This document shows positions 7,324 through 11,387 of a stretch of DNA of 64,000 nt, piece after piece; position 1 is the first letter of the stretch, and every line of letters begins with the position of its first letter. The notes beneath the pieces are model-generated. The model saw nothing but the letters and a program-made list of their open reading frames with translations, was not told the DNA's origin and did no database searches. The position numbers and the translations under genes were made by a program. This stretch comes from Sinorhizobium americanum (GTDB taxonomy: Bacteria; Pseudomonadota; Alphaproteobacteria; Rhizobiales; Rhizobiaceae), in assembly GCF_001651855.1 (NCBI RefSeq), contig NZ_LNQC01000044.1, forward strand, positions 62,001 to 126,000, written 5' to 3'.

Positions 7324-7695
7324 GTGTCCCATCAGCCCAACGCCGTTGACGCTTTCGTCGGTCATCGTATTCGCCTCCGCCGCAAGGGGTTGGGGATGGA
7401 CGAGAAGACTTTCGGCACGGCGCTGGGTGTGTCGGTGGCACATGTCCGAGGGTACGAACAGGGGACGGGCCGCGTGAGCGCGGCCGAGTTGCTGACGATG
7501 GCGGACATTCTACAGGTGCATTTTTCTTTTTTCTTCGAGGACGCGCCGGGGTCGGCGGACGGCGGGGTGCCGATGACGGTTGGGCGGAGGGACGTGAGCA
7601 GATCGATGGTTTTCCAATCGAGAATCGTCAGACGGTGGCACATCATCCGCCCCGGTCTCTGGGGCGGCAGGACCTTGGGCCTATCGGTCGGTTGA
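7324..7695 (+). CDS. XRE-family helix-turn-helix regulator
   Basis: 123 aa if begun at GTG 7324, which has GGAGG at 7313-7317 six bases ahead; the in-frame start at 7180 has none. The N-terminus (SHQPNAVDAFVGHRIRLRRKGLGM) followed by the HTH (DEKTFGTALGVSVAHVRGYEQGTGRVSAAELLTMADILQVHFSFFFE) matches the large rhizobial family of small XRE regulators, which have a short variable tail. Residues such as the usual Gln-Val-Gln of the recognition helix are changed, so its DNA target may have drifted. It ends 1 bp before the next regulator and is probably translationally coupled to it. Confidence 0.85.
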   Translation: MSHQPNAVDAFVGHRIRLRRKGLGMDEKTFGTALGVSVAHVRGYEQGTGRVSAAELLTMADILQVHFSFFFEDAPGSADGGVPMTVGRRDVSRSMVFQSRIVRRWHIIRPGLWGGRTLGLSVG

Positions 7696-7696
7696 G

Positions 7697-9523
7697 GTGA
7701 TCTTGACGGGGGCGGGCTATCACCTCAGGACGTTCGGAGAATTGCGGCTGATCGATGCGGCTGGCGACGCTGTCGCGTGTCCGGAGCGCGGCCTATTGAT
7801 CCTCGCCTACCTCTCGGCATCCGGACAAAAGGTCGCTACCCGCGACAAGCTCGCGACCATGGTCTGGCCGGACAGGGAAAAGAGCGTCGCGTTCAAAAAC
7901 CTGCGCTCGACATTATGGCGCATGCAGCACCTGGTGACGCCCGCGGGTGCGATTCTGTCTGCCACGGAGACGCAGGTGGCGCTGGGGCCGTTGTCCTGCG
8001 ACGTCTCCGATTTCGAGAGCGTAGAGGGCTCGGAAGAGAGCTTCCGCAATGCCCTCTCGCTCTGGCGCGATACGTTCCTGTCGTCGGCGGATCTGCCGTC
8101 CGGGCGCTATGCAAGCTGGGTGATGGAAAAGCGGCGCGGTTTCACGGAGGTGCTGCGCAGTGCACTCATCGAGGCGGAACGACGGTCGGCGGACCGGTCT
8201 ACGTTGCGCGCCGCCTGTGCGCATCTGCTGGAACTCGACCCCTCGGATGGAGCCGTTCGCGAGATCCTCCAGCGCGTCTGCCACGGCCAGTTGCTGAGAG
8301 TCAGGGCGCCGACCGAGGCAACTTTGCAGCAAGGCGAATTCTCTGAATGGGGGACGCAAGCGGGCGGGTCGGAAACCGTGCGTTTGCCGCGTGTCGCGCT
8401 GCTTCCGCCAGCCGCCTTCGGCAGCGATCCGATGCTCCATGCCGTCAGCGTGGCGGTGATCGAGGACATAACCATCGGGCTCTGTTCGCTGCGGTCGATG
8501 ACGGTCGTCGCACCCTATACCGCCGAGCGCATCCGAGAAGCGGCGGACAAGGCGGCGTTTCTCGAGCGGCACGGCGTCACCTACGCGCTCGATTGCCGCA
8601 TGTCGGACCAGGGGCTCTTCACGCAGCTCATTTTCCTGCCCACCGACCAGATCGTCTGGGCCGATCGCTTTCCAATCTCGCCCGCGGGCCTCGTCAAGCA
8701 GCGGCAGGATATCGCCTACCATGTTGCCCGGGCGGTGACGGAGCAGGTGGAGACGAGACAGGCAGACCACTTCGATTTCGTGACGCATCCGGAGGCTTAC
8801 TATGCCTATCTCGGGGGATTGCGACATCTTTCCGGACTCGGCCTCCCGGATGTTCGCAGGGCGCGCCGCGATTTCCGCGAGGCATTGAAGTATAGGCAGG
8901 ACTTTGCACCGGCGCTGAGCGGCATTGCCCGAACCTACGTCAATGAATGGCTTCTAACCGCCCGCGGCGACAATGACCTCCTTTTGACAGCGGAGCGCCA
9001 TGTGAAGGACGCCATTGCGAGCAACGATCATCTCCCTGCGGCTCACCGCGAAGCAGGGGTCGTAAAACTCTACCAAGGCGATCTGGACGAAAGCCTTGAT
9101 TCCCTCGACCGGGCAGAGCAGTTAGGCCCGCACTATGCCGACGTTCTTTACAGCCACGCGGATACGCTGGTCCACGTCGCGCGTCCGGCCGAAGCTCTTG
9201 ACAAGCTCGGTAAGGCGCTGGCGCTCAATCCACTAGCACCGGATGCCTATCTGTGGAGTGCCGCGGGTGCCAGCTATTTCCTAGGACAGTACGAGGAGTG
9301 CATCGGTTTCGTTCAAAGGATGAAGGACAAGACGCCGGCTGACAGAATCGTCGCTGCAAGTTGGGCGATGCTTGGCGACCGAAAGAAGGCGCGGCAGCAC
9401 AGGATGCGGGCTTTGAAGGCAAACCCGTCTTTCGACTTGGACAAATGGTTGGCCGTCGTTCCGATGAAGGAGCAATGGCAGAAAGATCTTTATCGAGAAG
9501 GGCTGAAGAAGGCGGGCTTTTAA
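7697..9523 (+). CDS. SARP-like winged-helix regulator with TolB-like and TPR domains
   Basis: 608 aa. An OmpR/SARP-type winged helix spans about residues 5-95 (HLRTFGELRLI ... WPDREKSVAFKNLRSTLWRM), followed by a bacterial transcriptional-activation-like helical region to about 200. Residues about 230-350 resemble the TolB/FlgO-like module found between DNA-binding and TPR parts of many alphaproteobacterial adenylate-cyclase-like regulators (VALLPP ... VIEDITIGLCSL ... QIVWADRF). TPR-like helices fill the C-terminus. The start is GTG 7697, one base after the XRE stop; a TTG at 7703 is an alternative. It likely activates the YcaO genes just downstream, but the target is inferred from position only. 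Confidence 0.82.
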   Translation: MILTGAGYHLRTFGELRLIDAAGDAVACPERGLLILAYLSASGQKVATRDKLATMVWPDREKSVAFKNLRSTLWRMQHLVTPAGAILSATETQVALGPLSCDVSDFESVEGSEESFRNALSLWRDTFLSSADLPSGRYASWVMEKRRGFTEVLRSALIEAERRSADRSTLRAACAHLLELDPSDGAVREILQRVCHGQLLRVRAPTEATLQQGEFSEWGTQAGGSETVRLPRVALLPPAAFGSDPMLHAVSVAVIEDITIGLCSLRSMTVVAPYTAERIREAADKAAFLERHGVTYALDCRMSDQGLFTQLIFLPTDQIVWADRFPISPAGLVKQRQDIAYHVARAVTEQVETRQADHFDFVTHPEAYYAYLGGLRHLSGLGLPDVRRARRDFREALKYRQDFAPALSGIARTYVNEWLLTARGDNDLLLTAERHVKDAIASNDHLPAAHREAGVVKLYQGDLDESLDSLDRAEQLGPHYADVLYSHADTLVHVARPAEALDKLGKALALNPLAPDAYLWSAAGASYFLGQYEECIGFVQRMKDKTPADRIVAASWAMLGDRKKARQHRMRALKANPSFDLDKWLAVVPMKEQWQKDLYREGLKKAGF

Positions 9524-9542
9524 CCGGGGCTTAGGGGGGAAT

Positions 9543-9767
9543 ATGGCCAAAGTCGTTGTGATCGGGATTCCGGGTGAGCCGGGCCTTTGGGTGGCAGATC
9601 TTGGAAACAGAACAGTCACGCCGCTTGACTCGGTGACGGGCGATCTGGCGATCGTGAACGGGTTCCGAAAGCCAGGTGCCGTCATCGCCAAGAATGTCGA
9701 TCTCGCGGTGGCCGTATCGTCGATCGATGATGTCTTTGCGGGCCACTTTGACGGCGACCGAACCTGA
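9543..9767 (+). CDS. 74-aa protein upstream of YcaO gene, unknown function
   Basis: Starts at ATG 9543 with an AGGGGGG-type ribosome site just ahead, 19 bp after the SARP regulator. The protein is small, mostly hydrophobic/beta-like (MAKVVVIGIPGEPGLWVADL ... FAGHFDGDRT), has no cysteine, no signal peptide and no membrane segment. Its end overlaps the likely YcaO start by 38 bp in another frame, which suggests coupled translation. It could be a partner or recognition protein of the YcaO enzyme or, less likely, its substrate. I do not recognise a family. Confidence 0.65.
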   Translation: MAKVVVIGIPGEPGLWVADLGNRTVTPLDSVTGDLAIVNGFRKPGAVIAKNVDLAVAVSSIDDVFAGHFDGDRT

Positions 9768-10968
9768 CATTGTAGGTTTGGCGAACCTTGGCGATGGCCA
9801 TTCCGACCGGTCGTGCACGCCGGACGAAACTTTTCATCGCGTCCGGCCCTTCCTTGCCGCCTTCGGCGTGACGCGGGTCGCCCGGCACACGGGGCTCGAC
9901 AAGGTCGGCATCCCGGTCTGGTGCGTCTATACGCCGAATTCCCGGTCGATCGTCGTCGCCCAGGGTAAGGGGCTGACAGACGCGGATGCGCGGGCATCCG
10001 CGGTCATGGAGGGGCTGGAGCGGGCAGTCGCCGGCGAGCCGGACGTGGACGCGATCGCGGAGACGCCGAACAATCTGCGTGCCTCCGGCCGCGCATTCGA
10101 TTGCCTCCGCGCTCTGATCGCGGCGGGTCGAGACGATATCCGGCCGAACGAGGCAATAGAATGGGTCGGCGGCACCGATCTGATCTCCGGCCACGACCTC
10201 CTCGTGCCGCTCGAAGCGGTGCGCCTCGACCGTACGAGGCCTTCGCGTTTCTGGATGTCGTCGGACGGGCTGGCATCGGGCAATAACATGCCGGAGGCAA
10301 TCCTGCACGGCCTGCTGGAGCGGGTCGAGCGCGACGCGCATGTTCTCTGGCGCGTGTCCGGCGAGGAGGCCCGCCACCGGGCATGCGTCGCCCCCGAGGA
10401 TCTTGACGACCCGGCACTCGACGTGCTCGTCGACCGCATCCGGGCGGCGGAGCTCGAATTGCGCCTTTTCGACATCACCAGCGACACCGGCATCCCGTGC
10501 TTCCTCGCGCTTCTCGGCCCGCGCGGCACGGCGACCGCCGGCAATCTTCGCTTCGTCGAGGTGACGAGCGGTTGCGGCGCGCATCCGTCCGCCGTCCAGG
10601 CTGCGGTCCGCGCGGTGACGGAAGCGGCGCAGTCGCGGCTCACCTATATCGGCGGCGCCCGCGACGACGTCTATGCCGAGACCTTCAGCCGGCCATTGCC
10701 GGAGTCGACGCGGCGCGCCTTTCTGGCAACGCCGCGGCCGATAACGACGCCGGTCGCTCGCACCGGCGCGCCGGTCGAGACCTTGCTGAGGCACACCATC
10801 TCCAGCGTGCGGGAGGTCGGCGTGCGGTCTGTCATCGTGGTTAGGCTCTCTCGTGACGATCTGCCCTTCGCCGTCGTCAAAGTGCTGGTGACGGACCTCG
10901 AGACTCCCGACGGCGAGCGAGCGCGCCGCTTCGGGTCGCGTGCGCTGTCGAAAGCAATTTCGTCGTGA
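9730..10968 (+). CDS. YcaO-domain protein (ATP-dependent amide-activating enzyme family)
   Basis: 412 aa from ATG 9730, overlapping the upstream 74-aa gene; a TTG at 9778, after that gene's stop, is possible. YcaO enzymes use ATP to activate backbone amides, making azolines, amidines or thioamides in peptides and proteins. Family features seen: SVAQGKG-like segment (VVAQGKGLTDADARASAVMEGLERAVAGE, about 75-105), LLERVERDAHVLW near 200, TEAAQSRLTYIGGARDD near 300, and a C-terminal LPFAVVKVLVTDLETP. This organisation is like the stand-alone/TfuA-associated YcaO proteins of rhizobia, but no TfuA gene is adjacent. It does not look like the methylthiotransferase-accessory E. coli YcaO. The substrate is unknown. 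Confidence 0.88.
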   Translation: MSLRATLTATEPDIVGLANLGDGHSDRSCTPDETFHRVRPFLAAFGVTRVARHTGLDKVGIPVWCVYTPNSRSIVVAQGKGLTDADARASAVMEGLERAVAGEPDVDAIAETPNNLRASGRAFDCLRALIAAGRDDIRPNEAIEWVGGTDLISGHDLLVPLEAVRLDRTRPSRFWMSSDGLASGNNMPEAILHGLLERVERDAHVLWRVSGEEARHRACVAPEDLDDPALDVLVDRIRAAELELRLFDITSDTGIPCFLALLGPRGTATAGNLRFVEVTSGCGAHPSAVQAAVRAVTEAAQSRLTYIGGARDDVYAETFSRPLPESTRRAFLATPRPITTPVARTGAPVETLLRHTISSVREVGVRSVIVVRLSRDDLPFAVVKVLVTDLETPDGERARRFGSRALSKAISS

Positions 10969-11165: not shown

Positions 11166-11387
11166 ATGACTAACTCTGTCTCGGTATCAGCCGACCATGA
11201 AGCGGAACTTGCGAGCATTACCAGAATGCTGGCCCATATCCGCGACAGCGCCCGCGCCTTAGACGCGCAGGCGCTGGAGTATTGCATCGATATGGCGCTT
11301 CAGGCTGTCACCAGCGAATTGCGCGATCGGCGTGAGTTTGCAGCCGCAGGAGCCGATCTGGGGGGCGGGATTCGCCTGCTGCAGTGA
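11166..11387 (+). CDS. small conserved-looking protein, 73 aa, unknown function
   Basis: Begins at ATG 11166 (MTNSVSVSADHEAELASITRM) after a GGGGG at 11157-11161; a longer in-frame start at 11082 adds a low-quality leader. Predicted to be a short helical protein (ITRMLAHIRDSARALDAQALEYCIDMALQAVTSEL) without membrane segment or metal motif. It stands about 200 bp after ycaO with its own upstream space, so it is probably a separate unit. I do not recognise a family. Confidence 0.6.
   Translation: MTNSVSVSADHEAELASITRMLAHIRDSARALDAQALEYCIDMALQAVTSELRDRREFAAAGADLGGGIRLLQ

Follow-up and report, generated by a model that had tools for sequence, protein, structure and literature searches.

A YcaO locus of Sinorhizobium americanum probably belongs to a thioamidated-peptide pathway whose TfuA gene lies elsewhere in the genome

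We analyzed a stretch of 64,000 nucleotides from Sinorhizobium americanum (the window; NZ_LNQC01000044.1, positions 62,001 to 126,000, on contig C44, one of the 82 that make up the 6.65 Mb genome), in which a YcaO gene follows two regulator genes and the gene of a protein of 74 amino acids (aa). Sequence comparisons make it probable (roughly 0.8) that this locus is a YcaO–TfuA pathway of the Hyphomicrobiales producing a thioamidated peptide, i.e. a ribosomally synthesized and post-translationally modified peptide (RiPP), and that the TfuA gene has left the operon within the lineage of Sinorhizobium. Those defining features of YcaO–TfuA peptides that we tested appear to be present with the exception of TfuA adjacency, which makes the locus a split variant. 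The genes are, in window positions:

7324–7695, + strand: XRE-family helix-turn-helix regulator (GTG start, 123 aa; HTH_3, 32 bits)
7697–9523, + strand: SARP/CadC-like TPR regulator (TPR repeat families; 1 bp gap after the XRE gene)
9543–9767, + strand: 74-aa protein, likely RiPP precursor (19 bp gap after the SARP/TPR gene; leader about residues 1–60, core about 64–71)
9676–10968 (longest frame), + strand: YcaO enzyme (PF02624, 218 bits, whole model covered; homology from near 9799)
11166–11387, + strand: 73-aa protein, final conserved cassette member (3′ of YcaO; no Pfam match at E ≤ 0.01)

The preliminary description of this DNA had presented the first four genes as a co-directional unit, in the order XRE, SARP/TPR, 74-aa protein and YcaO, with gaps of 1 and 19 bp and lacking TfuA. 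The open frames agree with this arrangement, and a domain scan of the cassette proteins found no TfuA, leaving the YcaO gene without an adjoining tfuA. The single gene overlap it reported holds if YcaO starts at any of the first six of its seven in-frame start candidates (9676–9748), all of which overlap the 74-aa gene, and vanishes if the seventh (9778) is used. For comparison we used the best 80 of 242 relatives (hereafter the named loci), the 12 closest of which belong to Sinorhizobium/Ensifer (66–84% identity); a family survey of 297 genomes from 109 genera, in which cassette YcaO was counted at E ≤ 1e-60; and surveys of the order (397 genomes) and class (385 genomes), which are sampled groups with at most 14 candidates scored per genome. 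The gene order, whose conservation the preliminary description had proposed to examine, recurs across Rhizobiaceae and is therefore beyond chance.

The YcaO protein shows features that suit a TfuA-associated enzyme. In 24 aligned homologues, the residues of what we take to be the ATP-binding motifs are invariant or nearly so. The available text of PMC8120280 describes residue preferences of TfuA-associated YcaOs in these motifs, which we read as Met, His and Ala; at the positions assigned from that text, they occur in 24, 23 and 24 of the 24 homologues, respectively. MJ1094, the closest solved relative (PDB 6pe3, E 9.9e-33), shares the Met and His when aligned, whereas TruD, which forms azolines, carries Cys and Gln at these positions. 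The best NCBIfam score was obtained with the McrA-glycine thioamidation model (TIGR03266; 192 of 365 bits, under the cut-off). A C-terminal PxPxP motif is a feature of the azoline-forming cyclodehydratases of linear azol(in)e-containing peptides and thiazole/oxazole-modified microcins (LAP/TOMM); none of the 24 homologues has it. Nor was an E1-like or Ocin-ThiF partner found among the scanned cassette proteins, the remaining genome not having been searched for one.

TfuA, although missing from the window cassette, is a regular companion of this YcaO. Of the 80 named loci, 59 have it directly after YcaO and two in another position; the stretch lacks it in 19, of which 11 are Sinorhizobium/Ensifer loci. 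The other eight all have TfuA elsewhere in the genome, with at least one copy on a precursor's contig at a distance of about 2.3 kb or less. In the closest Sinorhizobium/Ensifer group, tfuA adjoins ycaO in 0/12 loci (L087–L098). The displaced TfuA of the window genome lies at C71:21305–22030 (PF07812, 143 bits), and all 33 searched genomes of the genus contain a TfuA, 28 of them one of the cassette type with 61–100% identity to that of the window genome. This copy directly follows YcaO in 11 genomes (L214–L224) and has no YcaO within 1.5 kb in the other 17 (L197–L213); an XRE gene stands directly upstream of the displaced copy in 17/17.

A midpoint-rooted TfuA tree, for which 103 distinct rows were reduced to 73 by keeping every other named cassette row, groups the 17 displaced Sinorhizobium copies as a single clade (98/85). 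Its sister group consists of the Ensifer TfuAs that adjoin YcaO, with a joint fork at 100/96. A single displacement would therefore be the simplest history. The preliminary description had regarded the missing TfuA as the sign of a different kind of YcaO system, a view that it had tied beforehand to the absence of a co-occurring TfuA elsewhere in the genome. Since such a gene occurs in 33/33 genomes of the genus, and the displaced copy belongs to the lineage that adjoins YcaO in relatives, we abandon that view. By sequence, YcaO, TfuA and the regulator–precursor pair can be separated within one genome yet be retained together.

The same survey bears on the possibility that thioamidation in Sinorhizobium dispenses with TfuA, the YcaO acting alone with free sulfide. 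According to the accessible part of PMC13063428, purified E. coli YcaO thioamidates uL16 in vitro and needs only ATP, Mg and sulfide; the TfuA profile has no match in the E. coli control genome, and TfuA is unlinked in the window genome. On the other hand, TfuA is found in every searched genome of the genus and has been kept even in the 17 where it is unlinked, and the E. coli-type YcaO model (NF040716, named after S12, an earlier assignment) gives the window enzyme only 15.3 of 700 bits, far below its cut-off. We thus consider a YcaO working alone improbable.

Note that the window genome also contains a second YcaO–TfuA pair (L006:3796–10802; G000:C44, about 257.8–264.8 kb), with an AAA/cyclase-type regulator upstream and, downstream, proteins of 406 and 228 aa that have no Pfam match.

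The substrate of the pathway is most likely encoded next to the YcaO gene. Scans of the 74-aa protein against Pfam and NCBIfam gave no match at E ≤ 1, and its family was found in 45/297 family genomes (18/109 genera) and in 30/397 genomes of the order; in the class sample, the window's own genome was the sole match. When aligned, the family displays about 60 conserved residues followed by a short C-terminal motif, mostly Gly-x-hydrophobic-Asp/Glu. The core of the window protein is VFAGHFDG (about residues 64–71), other cores being AGHFDG, GGYMD and GLHE, none of which is of the Ser/Thr/Cys-rich azoline type; the C-terminal 14 residues of the window protein contain Ser, Thr or Cys at the final position only. 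Among 129 distinct family sequences (distinct strings, with starts picked by script), 22 have exact C-terminal repeats of at least four residues in 2–8 copies. The repeated units are diverse: four FSGKL in L068, three GGYMD in L069 and L070, five GRMD in L163, eight HHYFP in L192, six GLFERSE in L178 and six TRSD in L194, while a unit of about 24 aa is present three times in L084 and twice in L085 (two species of the window's genus). Locus L071 has two tandem precursor copies. Single-core members have an invariant core Gly, and 48 of 57 have [AS]GH (manual count).

This architecture, in which short cores in varying number follow a conserved leader, is characteristic of RiPP precursors such as those of the thiovarsolin family, which range from non-repeating to five repeats in the text of PMC6511847 available to us. 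For this reason, the 74-aa protein is best read, from its sequence, as the precursor of the pathway. The preliminary description had offered a RiPP pathway with a remote precursor as one option: a RiPP pathway is indeed our best reading, but the precursor is most likely the adjoining protein. Moreover, leader distance follows YcaO distance after allowing for the sensor part of the regulator (partial r 0.59, 57 loci). In the AlphaFold model of the precursor, the leader is partly ordered and the tail disordered (last block 35 on the predicted local distance difference test, pLDDT); a search with the leader fold gave no hit in the PDB at E ≤ 0.001, the best value being 2.2.

This partial order, i.e. 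strands and a helix predicted with moderate confidence in the well-conserved first 45 residues or so, would also suit a protein that serves YcaO as a structural partner or in recognition, the substrate then being a protein of the host or a precursor encoded at an unlinked site. Such a role is very unlikely in our judgment, in view of the variation and multiplication of the C-terminal cores, of the tandem copies in L071, and of one genus in which an unrelated short peptide takes the place of the 74-aa protein.

That genus came out of the co-occurrence of precursor and enzyme. Cassette YcaO is present in 52/297 family genomes, among which fall all 45 precursor genomes, and a profile search recovers the precursor in four of the remaining seven, i.e. 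in 49/52 altogether. The last three belong to one genus and have, between SARP and YcaO and with TfuA next, a conserved peptide, about 42 aa long, that is unrelated to the leader family and ends NATSNIVHAVRFR; it is likely an alternative precursor. Its frames, whose starts are not fixed, are:

L245:2763–2939, peptide of about 42 aa
L247:2745–2957, peptide of about 42 aa
L250:2952–3128, peptide of about 42 aa

Cassette YcaO itself was found in 33/33 searched genomes of the window's genus; named S. meliloti and R. leguminosarum strains also carry it. For loci without a local precursor, the genome contained one elsewhere in 16/16 genomes searched, and the one further genome, that of E. aridi (L095), which we take to be G003, has its precursor in L084. 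The genome of L127, included in the same search, has a local precursor. On a plasmid of R. tumorigenes, a precursor gene is found with no annotated YcaO within 4.5 kb.

What does stay with the precursor is the SARP/TPR gene, which accompanies it in 63/63 named loci with a local precursor and stands directly upstream in 10/10 of the remote or second precursors that were fetched. The regulator adjoins the precursor module wherever the sequence is long enough, even far from YcaO and TfuA (L196 is at a contig end; the second precursors of L071, L084 and L085 share one regulator). The model of the window protein (pLDDT 83) comprises a winged helix and a helical domain, as judged from secondary structure, followed by an alpha/beta and TPR part. 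This C-terminal part matches TPR superhelices and the periplasmic domain of CadC (3ly8, E 2.6e-5), whereas SARP-type domains are under cut-off: Trans_reg_C scores 13.8 of 26.2 bits in the window protein, and BTAD 21.1 of 22.1 bits, just under cut-off, in the homologue of L163. Of the earlier assignment to a SARP/TPR regulator, the TPR repeats are confirmed; SARP is used here as a label that the sequence weakly supports. In a public S. meliloti record, this protein carries the annotation adenylate cyclase, and the precursor is called a ‘hypothetical protein’.

The XRE gene behaves differently. It has a match (E ≤ 1e-5) within 6 kb flanks in 73/80 named loci, and in the majority of relatives it precedes SARP or YcaO; a first reading from 1.5 kb flanks, according to which XRE was not conserved, was overturned by this result. 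The dedicated two-regulator head of the preliminary description consequently holds in part: SARP/TPR stays with the precursor, while XRE genes occur with YcaO and with displaced TfuA. By eye, the C-terminal half of XRE seems to have diverged in Sinorhizobium relative to the Rhizobium homologues.

We infer the following course for the pathway as regards thioamide chemistry, modified residue, cleavage, sensing and biological role. The conserved leader would probably be recognized by YcaO, which, with ATP, would activate a backbone amide in the C-terminal core of the 74-aa precursor. TfuA proteins have a role in sulfur delivery, and the TfuA encoded elsewhere would supply sulfide in trans, converting the amide into a thioamide. 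A general protease would then free the short core peptide. The SARP/TPR regulator would control the precursor, and its CadC-like module may sense the peptide or a metabolite.

Several observations weigh against such a split pathway. TfuA is not adjacent, and it would have to work in trans. Apart from the copy in the second YcaO pair, five of the 33 genus genomes have only a more distant TfuA (45–47% identity to that of the window genome), which in two of them (G003 and G023) comes after a second YcaO (L084, L085). The YcaO and displaced-TfuA distance matrices of the 17 split genomes are well correlated (r 0.85; 0/2000 permutations as high), a value that shared descent alone would also be expected to give. 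Exact four-residue repeats occur inside residues 1–60 as well, in 8/129 family sequences, a count in which early core repeats are not sorted from the others. The core Gly is replaced in some repeats (SNRMDE, SHHYFP), for which reason we dropped it as the certain modified residue. The fold confidence of the precursor is modest (pLDDT 63). Finally, the conserved cassette includes neither a protease nor a transporter, its flanks not having been systematically annotated.

With regard to function, a core that is rather uniform and a YcaO present in 33/33 genus genomes would argue for a stable role and not that of a variable antibiotic. A gene for a TPR regulator next to the gene of its peptide is a feature of RRNPP-like peptide–receptor pairs, and this arrangement was found with the 63 local and the 10 fetched remote precursors. 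Regulator and precursor genes travel together, and the main core varies little for an antibiotic shaped by an arms race. A tentative and rather doubtful possibility is that the cassette produces a thioamidated peptide with which rhizobia signal and which the adjoining TPR regulator would read. If true, Gram-negative plant symbionts would have a backbone-sulfurized peptide as a pheromone or internal messenger, which would open a new line in symbiont regulation. In a test for coevolution of receptor and core, given YcaO, the partial r between core and sensor (0.18) is no stronger than that between core and DNA-binding part (0.17), in permutation figures that keep shared descent.

Among known systems, thiovarsolin (varA, varY, varT of Streptomyces varsoviensis) is like the cassette in its minimal set of precursor, YcaO and TfuA, as described in the available text of PMC6511847. 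The cassette differs in its leader and core, in its CadC-like TPR regulator and in the unlinked TfuA of most Sinorhizobium, and a VarO-type oxidase is not among its conserved members. The YcaO of McrA thioamidation acts on a methanogen protein and not on a short precursor, and the window YcaO is under the cut-off of that family.

The streptamidine (ami) system likewise has a standalone YcaO and short precursors, and in the accessible text of PMC8442711 the precursors of its family also lack Ser/Thr/Cys-rich regions and carry motifs one to three times. This resemblance would allow a RiPP pathway of the same kind in which YcaO makes another backbone change, an amidine, with TfuA acting elsewhere. 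However, TfuA directly follows YcaO in most named loci, the YcaO carries TfuA-type residues, and the ami hydrolase and transporter genes are not among the conserved cassette members. An amidine-forming YcaO is therefore unlikely, and we retain thioamidation as the probable change. The text on the ami system places it in Actinobacteria and Firmicutes, with an amidine product, another gene set and no tfuA listed.

TfuA–YcaO clusters have been mined in Proteobacteria, with more than 500 in Rhizobium, and have YcaO and TfuA adjacent, as in the intact cassettes of relatives (PMC8120280, available text). The intact form of the cassette is probably among them. The precursor types given in that text are thioviridamide-like, CCRG-2, albusnodin, thiopeptide-like and Nif11-like, and the 74-aa leader family is not named there. 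Among the matches listed in our literature search, no title or abstract beginning describes the precursor family or the TfuA split, most subscription journals and supplements being outside the search; the available text of PMC12455567 and PMC10352776 has no bearing on this family. A YcaO system present in each of the 33 searched genus genomes gains a likely precursor and hence a testable product, and genome mining that requires adjacent YcaO and TfuA would miss the split Sinorhizobium form.

The conserved unit is also larger than the four genes of the preliminary description, since by sequence similarity the 73-aa protein belongs to it: it is found 3′ of YcaO or TfuA in 79/80 named loci by three-round jackhmmer and in 48/80 by a single phmmer pass. 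It is present as a single copy in the window genome and perhaps has a protection or accessory role.

As to content, XRE, SARP, precursor and YcaO are all present in 58 of the 80 named loci; five have SARP, precursor and YcaO, 15 have XRE and YcaO, and two have YcaO only. In some of these 15 (L116, L122, L128, L129 and L149), inspection by eye reveals what looks like the beginning of a SARP gene in the interval separating XRE from YcaO, accompanied in some by a leader-like fragment; the SARP–precursor pair seems to have been lost from these loci, leaving remnants.

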